Virus record (IMG/VR): IMGVR_UViG_3300027573_000108
Coordinates: 1 to 24,764 of that record
Source: a virus
Direction: 5' to 3' (one strand)
DNA: 24,764 bases
The translations under genes were made by a program, and so were the position numbers. Shown piece by piece: positions 12,521 through 20,416 of this stretch. How positions within the stretch are numbered: position 1 is the first letter of the stretch; each line of letters begins with the position of its first letter. Below the pieces are notes generated by a model. The model saw only the letters and a program-made list of their open reading frames with translations. It ran no database searches and was not told where the DNA came from.

Positions 12521-13192
12521 TTATACAGCGGCACGGGCCTGCTTAAGAACTGCAGCGAGGAGCCCGTGCAACGTTCGCAATCGTTCAATGAGTAAGGGAT
12601 TGTTTACATCAAGCAAATCTGATTCGATCAAATCGATCAGCTGATTCGCATAAAATGACTGCTGCATGCCACCTAATCGCTTATTGGTTTCCTGCTGTTT
12701 CTTGTTTAGCTGCTTCCCAGCCATATGCGCTATTGTCCGCTTAAGCGGAATTGGCGCACCAGCACGTGTGGTACCAAACCCGCGCACCAAGTCCTGATAG
12801 CGTACTGATGGAATCTCCACCGTTTCGCAAAGGGTATCCTGCTTGATACCTAATTCCCGCGATCGCTGGATGATGTGCCGGATGTCGTATGGAGTGTATC
12901 GCCGACCGTGGTGTGTATTCGCTGCCGCCGCACGAAGAAACAAATCCTGATCATCTTTGACAGTGACGAGCTCGCATTCGATCTCATCCACGCCTGCCTT
13001 CTCACAAGCACGTACGCGAGTGAAACCATCAATGATTCGCAGCGTTTTAGCGCATACAAGGATGGGCGGAAACTTCGCACCTAAAGCTAAACTCTCAGCG
13101 TATTGCGCTGCCGTAACTTCATCCGTTTGTGATCGTGGATAGAATGCGTAATCACGAATCAGGGATGCTACTTCTAATTTTTTAGTGCTCAT
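12521..13192 (-). CDS. ParB-like protein (ParB/Srx N-terminal domain plus HTH)
   Basis: A 223-residue protein with AGGAG five bases before its ATG. Residues 5-95 resemble the ParB N-terminal domain: FPPILVCAKTLRIIDGFTRVRA matches the GERR-like box region (read in two pieces) and NTHHGRRYTPYDI matches the third box. Residues 100-145 (IRHIIQRSRELGIKQDTLCE) look like a helix-turn-helix. The C-terminal third is helical and could dimerise. No ParA partner is present, so it may be a regulator or DNA-clamp protein rather than a partition protein. Its upstream region is 700 bases of pentanucleotide array. A parS-like palindrome exists at 20890-20905. Confidence 0.7.
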   Translation of the reverse strand: MSTKKLEVASLIRDYAFYPRSQTDEVTAAQYAESLALGAKFPPILVCAKTLRIIDGFTRVRACEKAGVDEIECELVTVKDDQDLFLRAAAANTHHGRRYTPYDIRHIIQRSRELGIKQDTLCETVEIPSVRYQDLVRGFGTTRAGAPIPLKRTIAHMAGKQLNKKQQETNKRLGGMQQSFYANQLIDLIESDLLDVNNPLLIERLRTLHGLLAAVLKQARAAV

Positions 13193-13221
13193 GTTGTCTC
13201 CTCTGTTGAATAGTTAAAACC

Positions 13222-13886
13222 AAGCCTCGCCTTGCCACGCCGGACCATACCCCGCCACGCCCTACGGTGCCTCAAACTTGAAAATTCATAAGAACCAAAA
13301 CCCCGCCTTACCTTGCCTTACCCAGCCTCACCCCGCCGTACCTAGCCAAGCCAAACCAAGCCGCAACTCATTACAATCTCAGAATGCCAGAACAAATTCC
13401 CTGCCTTACCTTGCCTTACCAGACCCCGCCAAACCGCGCCAAACCCCACCTAGCCAGGCCCCGCCATGCCTTAATTCTATGAAAACGAAATCCCTGCCCT
13501 ACCTCGCCCTACCTAGCCAGGCCTCGCTCTGCCACGCCTCGCCGGACCGTGCCCGGCCTCACCCGGCCTCACCCGAAATTTATGAAAACGAAAATCCCTG
13601 CCTCGCCGCACCTCACCTCACCACACCCCACCGTGCCGCGCCTGACCCGGCCCAGCCAAACCATACCCCGCCTCACCCAATCGTAAAACTTATGACTGCG
13701 AAAACCCTGCCCTGCCTCACCGCGCCTAGCCTTGCCTGACCCCGCCCAGCCAGACCCCGCCGGAAACTTATAAATGCAAAGAAACCCTGCCATACCTTGC
13801 CGCGCCCGACCTCACCACGCCCTGCCTAACCCAGCCGAGCCACGCCAGACCGCGCCTCACCATGCCATACCCCGCATCGCCTCGCC
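13222..13886. repeat. Seven blocks of pentanucleotide units (GGYNN on minus, NNRCC on plus)
   Basis: Blocks of contiguous 5-base units, counted by hand: 13222-13261 (8), 13297-13362 (13, with one extra base), 13401-13470 (14), 13494-13573 (16), 13598-13677 (16), 13707-13761 (11) and 13787-13886 (20). In every block nearly all units keep GG on the minus strand with Y at position 3, while positions 4-5 vary. AT-rich spacers of 23-38 bases separate the blocks. Most share a pattern near TTATGAAAACGAAAATC on plus, and five blocks begin with CTGCC. The whole 13193-13891 interval holds no convincing gene. Confidence 0.9.
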
Positions 13887-13891
13887 TCAAC

Positions 13892-14473
13892 TCATTGAAC
13901 TAAAACAAATCTCCCATAAGGCCCACCACCACCCGCGCCTGGCCGGTATTCCCCAATGCCCATTCGCTGACCTGCATCCACCAACAACCCGCGCAAAATA
14001 TCTTCGATCTGTGGCACGAGTTCGATGTCACCGAGTATGTCGAACTTAACCATCCAGCCAGGGTATAGTGGCCGACCCCGCATTATTGCCTTTCTTTGAA
14101 TGACCACTCTGCGCACGTCTACCTCATATGCGGGTAATGGCTGGCCTGTTGCGGGATCGAGCAATACGACCAGTTCGGATGGTTCAATTTGAATATGGCT
14201 CATTGCCTGCTTTAGCGGCACTCTGCCAATCTTCTGAAAACTGGCACAAGCCATGATGCTATTCCGAATTGAAATAGACCTGATACAAAGGTTGCCTTGC
14301 TCGTTGCGATACGTGCCGCGTTCTGCTTCCTCTACAGGATCGTAGATTGGCTTCATGGCACCACGAGCCACAGGAACAGCATGGCCGTTCATTGACCCCA
14401 TCGGGTTGTGCGTCATTAATCCCGGTGGCAAACCTTGAATCGAAAAAGAGAATCGTTGGATTGTGTCTAACAT
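13892..14473 (-). CDS. Unknown phage protein with RAMP/Cas7-like sequence features
   Basis: A 193-residue protein with an ATG start and GGAGAG ten bases upstream. It has an N-terminal strand (QRFSFSIQGLPPG), a middle segment CIRSISIRNSIMACASF resembling the small-residue/basic helix of RAMP proteins, beta-rich stretches (YEVDVRRVVIQRKAI, WMVKFDILGD) and a C-terminal helix followed by a Gly-rich loop and strand (GIGEYRPGAGGGGPYGRFVL). That last element resembles the glycine-rich loop of Cas7/Cas6-type RNA-binding folds. I do not know a characterised homologue, and the RAMP idea is inference. The gene is bracketed by the pentanucleotide array: one block upstream, seven downstream. Confidence 0.6.
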   Translation of the reverse strand: MLDTIQRFSFSIQGLPPGLMTHNPMGSMNGHAVPVARGAMKPIYDPVEEAERGTYRNEQGNLCIRSISIRNSIMACASFQKIGRVPLKQAMSHIQIEPSELVVLLDPATGQPLPAYEVDVRRVVIQRKAIMRGRPLYPGWMVKFDILGDIELVPQIEDILRGLLVDAGQRMGIGEYRPGAGGGGPYGRFVLVQ

Positions 14474-14567: not shown

Positions 14568-14637
14568 TTGCCTCGCCTCGCCATACCTTGCCGTGCCTGA
14601 GCATGCCGCACCGAGCCACACCATGCCGGGCCCCGCC
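14568..14637. repeat. Eighth pentanucleotide block
   Basis: Fourteen units in exact 5-base register with one irregular unit (14598-14602). It has the same GGYNN pattern on the minus strand as the main array 680 bases to the left. It lies immediately after the stop of the small membrane gene ending at 14644 and upstream of the gene starting at 14473. Its flank AATCTCATAA resembles array spacers. Confidence 0.85.
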
Positions 14638-14643
14638 GCAATC

Positions 14644-15550: not shown

Positions 15551-16065
15551 TTGATCCTTATCGACTTGCCCCGCTCACCCAATTCAGCAAACGACAACTT
15601 CTCACCACCCTCGAGCAATTCCCGAATCATCGGATTCATAGGCTTCCTGATAAACTCGATAAATTCGTCAGGTATCTCTTCGAGGGGAGCCGTGATGATG
15701 AGCGGTGCGAGTCCGCCATTCTGCGCAGCAGTCACGCGAAAGCGTGCGGTTTCCATCGTCTTCAGCTGGTGCGCTTCGAAGAACCAGAGCAGCCTTGCCT
15801 TGAGACGATCAACTGCGCCGGCATCAACGCTCGCCCTTTCTGCCAAACGCTTCGCCTCAGCTTTTCGCGCGGCTGCTCTGGATTCCAATTCGCGAATCAA
15901 CCCACAGTACGCATCCACCTTGTCCTTCGTGGCCGTGCCCGTTTCCTCGAGCCAGGAATCAATGGCAGCTTCAGCGATTGCATCCGGGAGCTCGCCGCCC
16001 ACTTCAGTGAGCAGCGCTTCGAGTGCGGCCAGGTCGCCGGAAATCTCATATAACGTGGCGCTCAT
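15547..16065 (-). CDS. Siphovirus Gp157-like protein
   Basis: A 172-residue protein. It opens MSATLYEISGDLAALEALL, followed by a long helical region (KVDAYCGLIRELESRAAARK, AEAKRLAERASVDAGAVDRL) and the diagnostic HQLKTMETARFRVTAAQNG and IPDEFIEF segments. This architecture matches the siphovirus Gp157 family, named from Streptococcus phages and commonly encoded next to single-strand annealing proteins. Its molecular role is unclear. The start has AAGGAG seven bases upstream and overlaps the RecT-like stop by four bases. Confidence 0.82.
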   Translation of the reverse strand: MSATLYEISGDLAALEALLTEVGGELPDAIAEAAIDSWLEETGTATKDKVDAYCGLIRELESRAAARKAEAKRLAERASVDAGAVDRLKARLLWFFEAHQLKTMETARFRVTAAQNGGLAPLIITAPLEEIPDEFIEFIRKPMNPMIRELLEGGEKLSFAELGERGKSIRIK

Positions 16066-16838
16066 TTGCCTGCTCCTTCGTGCTTTGCCGCGTGGAGCTC
16101 ATTTGCCCAGCTGCCAAAGTCTTCGATGCAGTCGAGCATCTGCCCTTCCTTCAGGTCGGCACGCTTGTCCACACCCGCCACTTCCTTCATACGTGCCTGG
16201 ATGTTGGCATTCGAAATCCCATAGCCACGCAGTTCGCGGATCAGGCTGTCAAGATCGCTGACAGTCTTGATCAGCTTCTCGCGCCCGTTGCCATTGGGTT
16301 TGGTTTCGACTGTCTCTGGCAGTGCCGGCTGCTGTGGCTCATCGTGGAGCACCACATCCGGTATCGTTTCGATTTCGCTCTCATCGAGGAAACCGAGGCC
16401 GCAGACACTAAGCGTGACTCTGCGCTTCGCCTTCGTCTCAGCCTTCATGATTGCGTTGCACAGCAGATCGCCCTGGAGCCTGCCAATGGCGACTGCGCCA
16501 ATTGATTCATCAGCGCGCCCTTCCTTGGTGGTTGCCCTGGCAGTGACGATGTAGACGTCATTGATGTGCTCACGGCTGACGATCTGAATCGACACGTTGT
16601 GAATCTTGCGAAGCTGATCTGTTGCATCGCGCCGTGTGTAGAGCGTGAGCTTTCCGTTCAGGGTTATATATTGAAACGGCTGTGTAAGCGGGTTGAGTCC
16701 GACCGATCGACAAACCGCGTTGTAATAGTTGATGCGATCCTGGCTTGATAGTTTTGCCAGGTCGCCGGTAGCCAGGACGCGCTCGATGATCGCAGCGTAT
16801 TCCTGGCCCTCACCTTGAGTTGCTATTGCTGTACTCAC
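16062..16838 (-). CDS. Putative single-strand annealing protein (RecT/Rad52-like)
   Basis: A 258-residue protein with its start set at the GTG at 16838 (MSTAIATQGEGQEYAAIIER), preceded by AGGAG; a longer GTG frame to 16901 would lie in the hairpin. The core segment LNPLTQPFQYITLNGKLTLY, TRRDATDQLRKIHNVSI, DESIGAVAIGRLQGDLLCNA and MKAETKAKRRVTLSVCGLG is a conserved phage family generally found at the recT position. The C-terminal third is a variable linker plus helices. Adjacent Gp157 and a PD-(D/E)XK nuclease further along support a recombination role. Membership in the RecT/Rad52 superfamily is likely but not proven by eye. Confidence 0.7.
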   Translation of the reverse strand: MSTAIATQGEGQEYAAIIERVLATGDLAKLSSQDRINYYNAVCRSVGLNPLTQPFQYITLNGKLTLYTRRDATDQLRKIHNVSIQIVSREHINDVYIVTARATTKEGRADESIGAVAIGRLQGDLLCNAIMKAETKAKRRVTLSVCGLGFLDESEIETIPDVVLHDEPQQPALPETVETKPNGNGREKLIKTVSDLDSLIRELRGYGISNANIQARMKEVAGVDKRADLKEGQMLDCIEDFGSWANELHAAKHEGAGK

Positions 16839-16884
16839 TTTGTTATCTTGTCTCCTGTTCAATTGGCTGTATTTTTGCTCGAGG

Positions 16885-16909
16885 ACGCCCGCGCTACCCA
16901 CGCGGGCGT
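16885..16909 (+). terminator. Strong hairpin with T-run reading on plus
   Basis: Perfect 9-base arms ACGCCCGCG (16885-16893) and CGCGGGCGT (16901-16909) with a 7-base loop, followed on plus by TTTCATTT. On minus the stem is equally strong but is not followed by T's. It lies in the gap between the excisionase-like and RecT-like genes, and either stops antisense RNA or acts as an mRNA structure. Confidence 0.5.
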
Positions 16910-16915
16910 TTTCAT

Positions 16916-17128
16916 TTATGCTGATCGCTTGAAAGCTTTCCTTGGATCGAAGGGCCGCTCAACGTTCCGGTTGATCCAGTCACGCACATCTGCTTCACGA
17001 AACCTGAGCGAATGCCCAAGCTTGATGCGCGGCAGGGTTCTCGTTCCCCCGCCGCGCACATACAGCGTCTTGACTGCAATTCCGGTAATCTTCGATACCT
17101 CTTCAATCGTTAGAAGCTTGTCGATCAT
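16916..17128 (-). CDS. Excisionase / AlpA-like helix-turn-helix protein
   Basis: A 70-residue protein. MIDKLLTIEEVSKITGIAVK, then LYVRGGGTRTLPRIKLGHSL, then RFREADVRDWINRN is a textbook MerR-type excisionase (HTH_17) domain. Such proteins bend att DNA for excision or act as transcriptional regulators. It is in the early leftward operon, opposite in direction to the integrase, so expression would favour lytic growth. The ATG lies one base after the previous gene's stop, with only a weak GGCGGG upstream. Confidence 0.8.
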   Translation of the reverse strand: MIDKLLTIEEVSKITGIAVKTLYVRGGGTRTLPRIKLGHSLRFREADVRDWINRNVERPFDPRKAFKRSA

Positions 17129-17396: not shown

Positions 17397-17752
17397 TACG
17401 CACCTCCCTGGCTCTTCACGAGCTCACGTTCTGACCGTTTCAATTCTTCGAGCAGCCTGGCGCCTTCCAATGCCACCCCGCGCTCAGTTCCATCCCATCG
17501 GGCGAGCTCCGCACGAAAATGCGGGATGGTTACATATCTGTCGTTCTCAATGTGCTCGAGGATTCGGCATCGATCGCAGACGCCTTTATGCACTTCATCC
17601 ATCACATATGCCTGCTCGCAAACGCCGCAGACGGCTTCACACCCGGCGCATACAACCACCTGCTCGGCTTTATGCGACGATTCGCCAAACGCCACTGACC
17701 AGACAATCGAGAGGCCCTTGTGCCCACCACAGAAAACGCATTCGAGTTTCAT
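17396..17752 (-). CDS. Cys-rich zinc-binding protein
   Basis: A 118-residue protein with four CxxC-type motifs: CVFC (5-8), CAGC (35-38), CGVC (42-45) and CDRC (59-62), consistent with two zinc knuckles. The C-terminal half (FRAELARWDGTERGVALEGA, RLLEELKRSERELVKSQ) is helical. It overlaps both neighbours by one base. It may bind nucleic acid or a host protein as an early take-over factor; no known family is recognised. Confidence 0.65.
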   Translation of the reverse strand: MKLECVFCGGHKGLSIVWSVAFGESSHKAEQVVVCAGCEAVCGVCEQAYVMDEVHKGVCDRCRILEHIENDRYVTIPHFRAELARWDGTERGVALEGARLLEELKRSERELVKSQGGA

Positions 17753-18048
17753 TAGTTGGCCACCTCTTCCAGCTGCCTGAGCCGCGCTTCAATCTTCTCG
17801 AGCTGCATCCTGCAATCCACAAGGCGCTCGTGCCAGGCTGATCGAGTCACATACTTGTCGATCTCGTCTTCTGCCAGGTGCTTCTCGATCCTACTGATCT
17901 CGCGCATCATGCAAATCCGCTCAGTGCGCCAGAACTCCACACTGAGGCTGGTCGGCCAGCACGCCTCAGATTCCTTCAGGTACGCTTCGTATTCAGCGTC
18001 CTGCACTCCTTCGTATCTTTCTAATCTGTTGTCCATTGGTTGAATCAT
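17752..18048 (-). CDS. Coiled-coil protein, first gene of the leftward early operon
   Basis: A 98-residue protein. The ATG at 18048 (MIQPMDNRLERYEG) is chosen because AAGGA sits just upstream; a TTG at 18075 would start almost at the predicted transcript end. Long charged helices (RICMMREISRIEKHLAEDEI, then HERLVDCRMQLEKIEARLRQ) indicate a coiled coil. No family is recognised. It is about 30 bases downstream of the predicted transcription start of the promoter at 18084-18112. Confidence 0.7.
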   Translation of the reverse strand: MIQPMDNRLERYEGVQDAEYEAYLKESEACWPTSLSVEFWRTERICMMREISRIEKHLAEDEIDKYVTRSAWHERLVDCRMQLEKIEARLRQLEEVAN

Positions 18049-18083
18049 TGCCATCCTTTGCTCAATTTTCTGCAACGATTCGA

Positions 18084-18131
18084 AGTATATGTTAACAAAA
18101 ACACCGTGTCAAGACTTATTGTTAACAAAAA
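18084..18131 (-). promoter_or_regulatory. Leftward early promoter with two operator-like repeats
   Basis: On minus, -35 TTGACA (18112-18107), a 17-base spacer and -10 TATACT (18089-18084): almost consensus sigma70. TGTTAACAAAAA on plus occurs at 18090-18101 inside the spacer and again at 18120-18131 upstream of -35, exactly 30 bases apart. The repeats are likely operators for one or both RHH regulators encoded nearby. Confidence 0.85.
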
Positions 18132-18141
18132 GCCCAATTGC

Positions 18142-18339
18142 TTAAAGGGGCGGTCTGGGGCGGTTTCCGTTCATCTGGCGATACATCACCAGGCCATAAT
18201 CAATCAGCAGGGCGAGTATCTTGCTCTTGGTAGTATGTTCTTTTCTGCCTATTCGAGCGATTTCCTGATCGAGCTGCTTGGGAATCCTGCTCCCGACAGT
18301 GATCAGTACGTCCTCTTCGTGCTTCTTTGGCCTTCCCAT
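18142..18339 (-). CDS. Ribbon-helix-helix regulator, leftward (MGRPKK type)
   Basis: A 65-residue protein from the ATG at 18339 (MGRPKKHEEDVLITVGSRIP); a longer frame to 18372 would begin inside the promoter. The layout is basic N-terminus, strand LITVGSRIP, helix KQLDQEIARIGRKE, helix KSKILALLIDYGLVMYRQM, as in CopG/Arc repressors. Its predicted transcript starts only about 2-4 bases before the ATG, so the mRNA is nearly leaderless. It shares its N-terminal motif with the divergent regulator at 18431 and is probably its antagonist in the lysis-lysogeny decision. Confidence 0.78.
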   Translation of the reverse strand: MGRPKKHEEDVLITVGSRIPKQLDQEIARIGRKEHTTKSKILALLIDYGLVMYRQMNGNRPRPPL

Positions 18340-18348
18340 ACTCTCAGA

Positions 18349-18422
18349 CTTATAACTAACATAAACCCTCAAGTCAAGAGTTAAAAAAAACGTTTACACA
18401 AACTCGGAGATCTGTGTATACT
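18349..18422. promoter_or_regulatory. Back-to-back divergent promoters of the two regulators
   Basis: Leftward: -35 TTGACT (18377-18372), 17-base spacer, -10 TATAAG (18354-18349). Rightward: -35 TTTACA (18393-18398), 18-base spacer, -10 TATACT (18417-18422). Only 15 bases separate the two -35 boxes. Dyads: GTTTACACA (18392-18400) with TGTGTATAC (18413-18421), 8 of 9 matching, covering the rightward promoter; and an imperfect palindrome at 18364-18382 over the leftward -35. Confidence 0.85.
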
Positions 18423-18430
18423 GTTCGGGC

Positions 18431-18874
18431 ATGGGACGACCCAAAAAAGCCCCCGAAGAGAGGCTGGTAACCGTCGGTACTCGTGTCTCCCCAACCCTGC
18501 TAGAAAAGATAAGAAGCGTCATGCTTGAGCTTCATCGGCTTGGCAAGATTAGCCGGCCTAATGAAAGCGCAGCGTGCGGCTGGATGATCGGGCAAGGTAT
18601 GGAAGCATACGAGCGAGCTGACGATCCATTATTCATGGTCATGATGGCGATCTGGCCTCATTTGAATGAGATTGCTCATGAGGCGCTAGTAGGTGCCGCC
18701 AAAGGTCTCCACGAGATGGAATCCATGAAAGCTTCGAAAGGGAATGTCAGTCCATTGAAGCGTGAAGACGGAGATGGCAGAAAACCCGGCGATAAAGAAC
18801 CGCGCAAGCCAGGCGGCAATGGCAGGCGCGGGAAACAGAAGGACGACGAAGAAGACGAAAGATACGTGGCATAG
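18431..18874 (+). CDS. Ribbon-helix-helix regulator, rightward (candidate lysogeny repressor)
   Basis: A 147-residue protein, MGRPKKAPEERLVTVGTRVS at the N-terminus. A strand plus two helices (LLEKIRSVMLELHRLGK; ESAACGWMIGQGMEAY) fit an RHH domain in residues 1-60. Residues 60-100 are helical, and the last 45 are a highly charged, probably disordered tail (REDGDGRKPGDKEPRKPG, KQKDDEEDERYVA). The rightward promoter places the transcription start at or within two bases of the ATG, so the mRNA is leaderless, as for lambda cI from PRM. It heads the operon that includes the integrase, consistent with a maintenance repressor. Confidence 0.75.
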   Translation: MGRPKKAPEERLVTVGTRVSPTLLEKIRSVMLELHRLGKISRPNESAACGWMIGQGMEAYERADDPLFMVMMAIWPHLNEIAHEALVGAAKGLHEMESMKASKGNVSPLKREDGDGRKPGDKEPRKPGGNGRRGKQKDDEEDERYVA

Positions 18875-18914: not shown

Positions 18915-19364
18915 ATGAAGAACCTAATCATCGGAGCGGGAATCACGATCATGGGAACTATCGTGTTCTCGCTCATTATTGCAGCATCATCGACCGCCAG
19001 ACGATCATCGCAGGCGGCATCATTCACACCCGCACAGGCAACCCCGACACCAGCGCGACTGACACTCGAGCCATCTTATTACCGTTTGGAGCTTGAGACT
19101 GACTACCTGCACATGATCAATGAAGTCAACCACGGCTACTACAATCATGTAGAGGTAAAAGTGAAAAAGGCTAAAGGTGGATATACCTTGTATGCCTATC
19201 ATTCATTTTTCAATCAATACCAATTCCAAATCGGGGATTTCGGGAAAAAAGTCTCTGCCTGGGTAAGTAGCAACCGCGCCAAGCTCAGACTTGCAAAGAT
19301 CACACGTGTTGGAGTCTATGGCACTGGCGCTTATGCGTCCGGCACCTACTACGAAGTTCAATGA
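18915..19364 (+). CDS. Membrane-anchored protein of unknown function in the lysogeny operon
   Basis: A 149-residue protein. Residues 1-26 (MKNLIIGAGITIMGTIVFSL...) form a single membrane anchor or uncleaved signal; a Ser/Thr/Ala/Pro linker follows, then a folded domain (about 55-149) with aromatic-rich strands (YYNHVEVKVKKAKGGYTLYA, VGVYGTGAYASGTYYEV). The domain should face the periplasm or outside. Expression with repressor and integrase suggests a lysogenic-conversion or superinfection-exclusion function; this is inference. The stop overlaps the integrase ATG by four bases. The ribosome site is weak. Confidence 0.7.
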   Translation: MKNLIIGAGITIMGTIVFSLIIAASSTARRSSQAASFTPAQATPTPARLTLEPSYYRLELETDYLHMINEVNHGYYNHVEVKVKKAKGGYTLYAYHSFFNQYQFQIGDFGKKVSAWVSSNRAKLRLAKITRVGVYGTGAYASGTYYEVQ

Positions 19365-20416
19365 TCCACAAAGTCCTATCCAAACGCACAGGCAAGACAA
19401 CGTGGGCCATCTCTGTCCGGGTTGGCGGGCTTCGCTATCGTGAAGCAGGATTCAAGACAAAGGAAAAGGCGGATGAATACATCCGGGATCTAAAGGATGC
19501 CTACAGGAACCGCCGAATCGGGATCGAACCGGAATACGAACGCCGCGTGATCACCTTGCAGGATCTCTTCGAGGCACGCGCCCGCGATGCGATCAATATG
19601 AGCACAGGGTCCCGCCGCCAGCTGCTGCGACATTTTGCCGATTTCGTATCAATCGACCCTGACCTGCCGGTGCGTGACGTCACAGTTTCGCGCCTTGCAT
19701 CCTATCGCGCAGACCTGATGGGCCGGTTCAAGGTTTCAACCATTGAGTTCGTCATCGCCGGCATCGTTGCGGGTCTCAATTCGGGCCGCTTGTATTTCCC
19801 CGAACTCGAAACCTTCCGCGCGCCCGCGCTGGTCGGATTGCCGAATCCCGGCCGCGCAGTTCTCGTCCCTCGAGGTGAACTCATCGCAGTCCGTGACGAA
19901 CTCCGCCGGATGGACAGGACAGATGCAGCGGATGTTTTCGAAATGCTGATCCTCACAGGCTGCCGCGTGATGGAGTTGCTCACGCTTCGCCCTGAATGGA
20001 TTGAATGGGAGCGTGGCCTTGTCGGATTGCCCGCGAATGCAACAAAAACTAAAACATCTCGCATTCTTCCAATAACGCCTTCCCTTGAAGTTTTGCTTCG
20101 CCGGCGATCCGTTGGGCCTTCTCTTTGCTACGCGACGTTCTACAGGGCTGTATGCGCAGCAGGAAGGGCACAAGGGATTGTGATCGGTATGGACAGCTGG
20201 CGGATTCACGACATCCGGCATACGGCCGCATCGATCCTGGCAGAAGCAGGGATCAACCAGAAGATCATTGCAGACCTGCTGGGGCATAGCCTGGGCGGTA
20301 TGACGTCCCGGTACACTCACTCGACGTTGCCTGCACTCCGCGCCGCGTCCTCAGTCCTTGAAAGCTACTGGGAAGGGCGCCGCGTGGCAGCGTTCCCGAA
20401 GGCGGTGAATGAATAA
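19361..20416 (+). CDS. int: Tyrosine recombinase / phage integrase
   Basis: A 351-residue protein. The N-terminal arm-binding region (about 1-60, TWAISVRVGGLRYREAGFKT) and core-binding domain (65-150) precede the catalytic domain. Catalytic set visible: R202 in TGCRVMELL, K229 or K231 in ATKTKTSRILPI, H283 and R286 in IHDIRHTAAS, H309 in LLGHSLGGM and Y318 in SRYTH. It catalyses site-specific integration and, with the excisionase-like protein, excision. It is the third gene of the rightward operon, coupled to the membrane protein. The probable att region is 200-600 bases downstream. Confidence 0.96.
   Translation: MIHKVLSKRTGKTTWAISVRVGGLRYREAGFKTKEKADEYIRDLKDAYRNRRIGIEPEYERRVITLQDLFEARARDAINMSTGSRRQLLRHFADFVSIDPDLPVRDVTVSRLASYRADLMGRFKVSTIEFVIAGIVAGLNSGRLYFPELETFRAPALVGLPNPGRAVLVPRGELIAVRDELRRMDRTDAADVFEMLILTGCRVMELLTLRPEWIEWERGLVGLPANATKTKTSRILPITPSLEVLLRRRSVGPSLCYATFYRAVCAAGRAQGIVIGMDSWRIHDIRHTAASILAEAGINQKIIADLLGHSLGGMTSRYTHSTLPALRAASSVLESYWEGRRVAAFPKAVNE

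Follow-up and report, generated by a model that had tools for sequence, protein, structure and literature searches.

Two divergent RHH regulators as the probable lysis–lysogeny switch of an uncultivated temperate phage

Textbook temperate phages keep their lytic genes silent with helix-turn-helix (HTH) repressors. The window analysed here, a 24,764-base fragment that constitutes an IMG/VR virus record, raises the question of how a temperate phage chooses between dormancy and lysis when the immunity position, between the integrase and the early/excisionase operon, is occupied by two divergent genes for small ribbon-helix-helix (RHH) regulators, which we call regL and regR. Our analysis suggests that in this uncultivated phage the choice is probably made by these two related RHH proteins, opposed to each other across common DNA sites, and that the pair probably stands in place of the HTH repressors.

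The two regulators and their neighbourhood

The regL gene (18142–18339, minus strand) is an open reading frame for a minimal RHH regulator of 65 amino acids (MGRPKKHEED...) and is the first leftward gene, ahead of the early operon. The regR gene (18431–18874, plus strand) encodes a regulator of 147 amino acids (MGRPKKAPEE...) with an extra C-terminal region, and heads a group of rightward genes, among them those for a putative exported protein and the integrase. An earlier note on this DNA had described the two proteins as sharing the start MGRPKK and as having RHH layouts. The common start in two divergently transcribed reading frames was confirmed, and regR is paralogous to regL (33% identity over 64 amino acids, E 4e-9). 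The RHH layout, however, held to different degrees for the two proteins. In the AF2 model of regL (mean pLDDT 71, and 86–87 over residues 21–40) helices at residues 21–34 and 38–57 follow an extended N-terminal stretch, which at modest confidence is the beta-strand-plus-two-helix layout of RHH proteins; the strand itself is absent from the model of a single chain, which would fit a strand that forms only by pairing in the dimer. The best structural matches of regL are RHH proteins (Z 4–6, with a modest maximum of 6.1), among them the Rv0298 antitoxin, CopASO, PutA, ORF56, AmrZ, CopG, Arc and ParG, and unrelated folds rank lower. The regR model also has helices (21–36 and 43–55) that match RHH, but its pLDDT of 52 is too weak for use, and regR is assigned to the RHH class, as a prediction, solely through its homology to regL.

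Family searches gave a mixed picture. In Pfam neither regulator of the window matches any RHH family, and the regL profile, run against the sequences of solved structures, returned no RHH match. When all twelve regulators were used, the search of solved structures returned CopG-type proteins at weak E-values, and the regL proteins of two related phages (L003 and L005, see below) match RHH_1 above the gathering score.

On the early strand, the first early gene (17752–18054, minus) starts near a conserved MIQ... start and has a 67% identical homologue in L005. This start (18040–18070, minus), placed after a similar leader, is common to the window, L003, L005 and L009, while some of the four phages differ in the remainder of the gene. 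Farther along the early operon is an excisionase-like HTH_17 protein (16916–17128, minus; Pfam HTH_17 E 4e-9, phrog_66 excisionase E 1e-6), which is 80–84% identical in three relatives. On the other strand, the next gene after regR encodes a putative exported or membrane protein (18915–19364, plus), which belongs to no known family and has counterparts in L009 (64% identity) and L003 (31% over 76 amino acids), and after it comes a tyrosine integrase (19361–20416, plus; Pfam Phage_integrase E 6e-20). Since regR thus heads a cluster with the integrase, and regL comes first on the early strand, which also carries the excisionase-like gene, the arrangement fits a lysogenic role for regR and a lytic one for regL.

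Several other features of the fragment were observed. The putative exported protein is a candidate for an exclusion protein expressed in the lysogen. Campylobacter phages and Paenibacillus genomes contain distant relatives of a conserved protein at 16062–16901, which has no Pfam match and which we take to resemble a single-strand annealing or RecT-like phage protein. Degenerate five-base units (RCCNN) form a C-rich array (GC skew about −0.40) at 13210–13900, with a shorter piece at about 14575–14640; the array adjoins a ParB-like gene (12521–13192, minus; phrog_1033) and is possibly a binding array. The two ends of the window share no direct repeat of at least 10 bases.

Direct queries with regL and regR against viral contigs and isolate phages gave no matches, and relatives were therefore reached by searching with two neighbours, the single-strand-annealing-like protein and the integrase. 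Four of them (L003, L004, L005 and L009) have two small, divergent RHH-like genes at the same place, adjoining int/xis in L003, L009 and L004, so that the two-RHH layout, which the earlier note had described for one sequence, extends to a group. The more distant loci (L010–L012, L032, L033, L040, L053–L057 and L060) gave no convincing RHH match, and a nucleotide search of isolate phages gave no match. A genome scan directed at the host produced distant matches only (Paenibacillus, an Acidobacteria MAG and an Epsilonproteobacteria MAG), and among 396 genomes of the phylum of the Acidobacteria MAG there was no match besides that MAG.

Promoters and candidate operators in the window

Three promoters are predicted in the region. 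The early promoter (18084–18112, minus; TTGACA-17-TATACT) is near-consensus, with 11 of 12 consensus bases. The regL promoter (18349–18377, minus; TTGACT-17-TATAAG) has a −10 hexamer that ends 9 nt before the ATG, and the regL mRNA of the window may therefore be leaderless or nearly so. The −10 hexamer of the regR promoter (18393–18422, plus; TTTACA-18-TATACT) ends 8 nt before the ATG, which predicts a leaderless mRNA. The five phages (the window and the four relatives) all have a TATACT or TATAAG hexamer whose end lies 7 or 8 bases ahead of the regR start codon, compared with 1.06% of background start codons, and leaderless translation of regR may thus be common to the five. The regL genes of L003 and L005 have GGAG ahead of the ATG and lack such a TATAAT-like hexamer. 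Between regL and the early promoter a terminator was considered and none was found (z 0.5), so the regL mRNA probably continues into the early genes.

The earlier note had placed four related motifs in these promoters, and all four lie exactly where it put them (plus-strand coordinates; mismatches are counted against the box at 18091). Box 1, GTTAACAAAAAC (18091–18102), with the palindromic core TGTTAACA, is in the spacer of the early promoter, and box 2, GTTAACAAAAAG (18121–18132), with the core TTGTTAACAA, is upstream of the early −35. The box GTTTACACAAAC (18392–18403; 10 of 12 bases matching) is over the regR −35, and a weak box, ACTAACATAAAC (18355–18366; 9 of 12), is in the spacer of the regL promoter. 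A fifth box, GTTAAAAAAAAC (18380–18391), had been overlooked although at 11 of 12 it is a closer match than those at 18392 and 18355. It overlaps no predicted promoter hexamer, lying between the regL −35 and the regR −35, and abuts GTTTACACAAAC, so that the two form head-to-tail 12-base units.

The proposed relatedness of these motifs across the three promoters found statistical backing: the early boxes far exceed chance, and the boxes of the divergent region do so as a cluster. In local dinucleotide shuffles, the early region has two sites with at most one mismatch (one being the reference itself) versus 0.004 expected (0 of 3000 shuffles), and the divergent region has one such site versus 0.003 expected (P 0.003) and three with at most three mismatches versus 0.31 expected (P 0.003). 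The sequence GTTAAC occurs twice in the 24,764 bases, both times in the early promoter. The 18355 box, at 9 of 12, is on its own indistinguishable from chance and is not to be relied on by itself. Over the whole window, sites with at most three mismatches are not enriched (15 seen versus 10.25 expected; 9 of 100 shuffles reach 15), and a tight pattern, which was derived from the boxes themselves, is seen 8 times versus 0.82 expected (0 of 100 shuffles). For the best word common to the two regions, early and divergent, the P values disagree (12-mers in the window, 0.02; L004, 0.98). Within the window, the case for operators common to early and divergent promoters is moderate.

Conserved layout and changing boxes in the relatives

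In the relatives the layout is kept while the boxes differ, and the window, L009 and the pair L003/L005 bring the number of different box sequences to at least three. The early promoters of L009 and the window still have alignable flanking sequence, and their cores occupy the same places to within 1 bp: counted from the start of the early −35, GTATAC is at −14 and +15 in L009, and GTTAAC at −14 and +16 in the window. The simulated chance of a 6-base palindrome common to both early-promoter places is 0.001–0.002 in each of the two phages. The candidate operators of L009 are GGTATACC; on the one strand searched, GGTATAC has only two sites in the 16.8 kb locus, both around the early promoter.

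L003 and L005 have a CTAG-rich operator set in common, with boxes in the early and the divergent regions. Within an immunity region of about 400 bases lie 8 of the 16 CTAG sites of L003 and 8 of the 15 of L005, versus 0.2 expected; two of these 16 immunity-region sites are in the regL gene or at its edge. In L004 an inverted repeat, CTAC-N-GTAG, is present in the early spacer and in the divergent region, with weaker statistical support. Common operators across promoters are well supported in L003/L005, in addition to the moderate case of the window; in L009 and L004 the case for them is weak.

The comparison of L003 with L005 also bears on which protein matters for operator choice. Their regL proteins are 98% identical and their early operators alike, and a second rightward RHH protein is 93% identical, whereas the first regR proteins are only 28% identical. 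The second RHH protein could therefore be the lysogenic repressor in these phages, or regL could set operator choice. The RHH-like gene for it follows regR (6972–7265 in L003, 1799–2092 in L005), and it may mark a recombination boundary or be a second repressor.

A proposed switch, its rivals and its known counterparts

On balance we favour the reading that the region is the primary immunity (lysis–lysogeny) switch of this phage group, with regR as the lysogenic repressor and regL as its lytic opponent. In the proposed mechanism regR would be transcribed rightward from its leaderless promoter, followed by the putative exported protein and the integrase, and its product would bind the short palindromic boxes of the early promoter (core GTTAAC, flanked on one side by an A/T tract). 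There it would obstruct RNA polymerase at two positions, within the spacer and immediately ahead of the −35; weaker boxes in the regL promoter would be bound as well. The product of regL, which stands first on the side of the early/excisionase operon, would play a Cro/Arc-like role by acting on the boxes over the regR −35, and the competition of the opposing RHH dimers for related boxes would create the switch. The placement of the boxes, in the early spacer (18091), upstream of the early −35 (18121), over the regR −35 (18392) and in the regL spacer (18355), is as the earlier note had described and would suit repression of all three promoters; it is from sequence that we infer the binding, its distribution over the boxes, the mutual repression and autorepression, the leaderless translation and the bistability. 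The interpretation offered in that note is supported in part.

Would a single RHH protein suffice to bind the boxes and set immunity, the other having a different target or role? We regard this as rather unlikely. It would account for the joint inheritance of regL and the operators in L003/L005 while the first regR varies, and for L009, where the strand residues predicted to face the DNA appear to differ between the two proteins. In the window, however, T14, G16 and R18, which by analogy with CopG and Arc we take to be DNA-facing, are identical in regL and regR, and boxes lie over the promoters of both regulators. It is improbable, too, that the pair forms a secondary module like P22 immI, tuning an antirepressor or an accessory early gene while a separate main repressor holds lysogeny. 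The closest known wiring, the divergent RHH pair Mnt/Arc, is such a module, but the pair described here lies between the integrase and the excisionase/early operon and not in late genes, and no candidate for the separate repressor emerged. Searches for HTH_3 and Peptidase_S24, which gave matches in control genomes, returned nothing over cut-off in the five records (the window and the four relatives, possibly incomplete, with two of 37.8 and 40.3 kb among them), the one sub-cut-off HTH_3 match reaching 12.3 bits in the record of L009. In 52 small proteins, taken from the window and the L003 record, Pfam (E 0.001) identified HTH_17 (excisionase-like) and RHH_1 as the only DNA-binding families, with no CI-like family, and no antirepressor family was found among the small proteins scanned (25 of 34 PHROGs families listed).

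Two further readings concern the nature of the boxes and of the proteins. The boxes are very unlikely to be AT-rich promoter features or host-factor sites instead of regL/regR operators: the GTTAAC and GGTATAC cores are confined to the corresponding early promoters and keep one register in the two phages, even though the boxes of the divergent region are A-rich and imperfect and the 18355 box alone is within chance. We give next to no credence to an antitoxin-like or partition-like RHH system that came to lie at the immunity position by chance, a reading suggested by the presence of RHH antitoxins and ParG among the structural matches of regL; no toxin or ParA-like neighbour was recognised, and the boxes at the early promoter suit repression of phage early genes.

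Elements of the favoured switch have precedents: a divergent RHH pair is known from P22 (Mnt/Arc), and an RHH repressor that serves lysogeny from SSV1 (F55). By analogy, the wiring appears to resemble that of P22 Mnt/Arc and the gene layout that of P2, with regL and regR outside the Arc family. Like the window, P22 immI encodes a divergent pair of RHH repressors whose operators lie over back-to-back promoters, one protein being minimal (Arc, 53 amino acids) and the other having an extra C-terminal part (Mnt, 83 codons); mnt is repressed by Arc, and arc/ant by Mnt. Unlike the window, immI is a secondary region beside late genes that controls an antirepressor, and Arc and Mnt have separate annotated operators, in contrast to the common boxes proposed here. 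The regL and regR proteins have no sequence similarity to P22 Arc and Mnt, and Pfam Arc, which both P22 proteins match as a positive control, is not matched by either.

In the C/Cox system of P2 the repressor is upstream of int on one strand and the lytic regulator and excision function are on the other, with face-to-face promoters, a layout like the regR–integrase and regL–excisionase arrangement. P2 C is an HTH protein, whereas in the window both regulators are RHH-type and there is a second early promoter after regL. Lambda cI/cro combines two opposed HTH regulators with a leaderless repressor mRNA and a self-cleaving CI. The window resembles it in its opposed regulators, its presumably common boxes and its predicted leaderless repressor mRNA, as well as in having relatives with the same layout and different operators; unlike lambda, its regulators are RHH-type and no S24 domain was found. 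In SSV1, the small RHH protein F55 is described as maintaining lysogeny, with binding to repeated sites at early promoters and at its own promoter (PMC5569661). This virus is an archaeal fusellovirus, for which the account is of one RHH protein and not of a divergent pair, and its repeat is different. Searches of the open-access literature turned up no report of a bacterial phage whose main immunity is an RHH pair.

More tentatively, paired RHH paralogues may be the sole immunity system of a bacterial phage group in which operators and regulators co-diversify into heteroimmune types, the GRPKK-like (AT-hook-like) arms reading the A tract, the beta ribbon reading the palindromic core, and induction proceeding without RecA-stimulated self-cleavage. 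No inducer-sensing domain is visible in the switch proteins, and the favoured reading, if right, would call for an explanation of how an RHH repressor that lacks a self-cleaving domain perceives the induction signal. It would also put a compact two-protein switch on hand for testing. An Arc/Mnt-type switch would then have replaced the CI/Cro type as the main immunity of a phage group, and the logic of the switch would be independent of HTH proteins.
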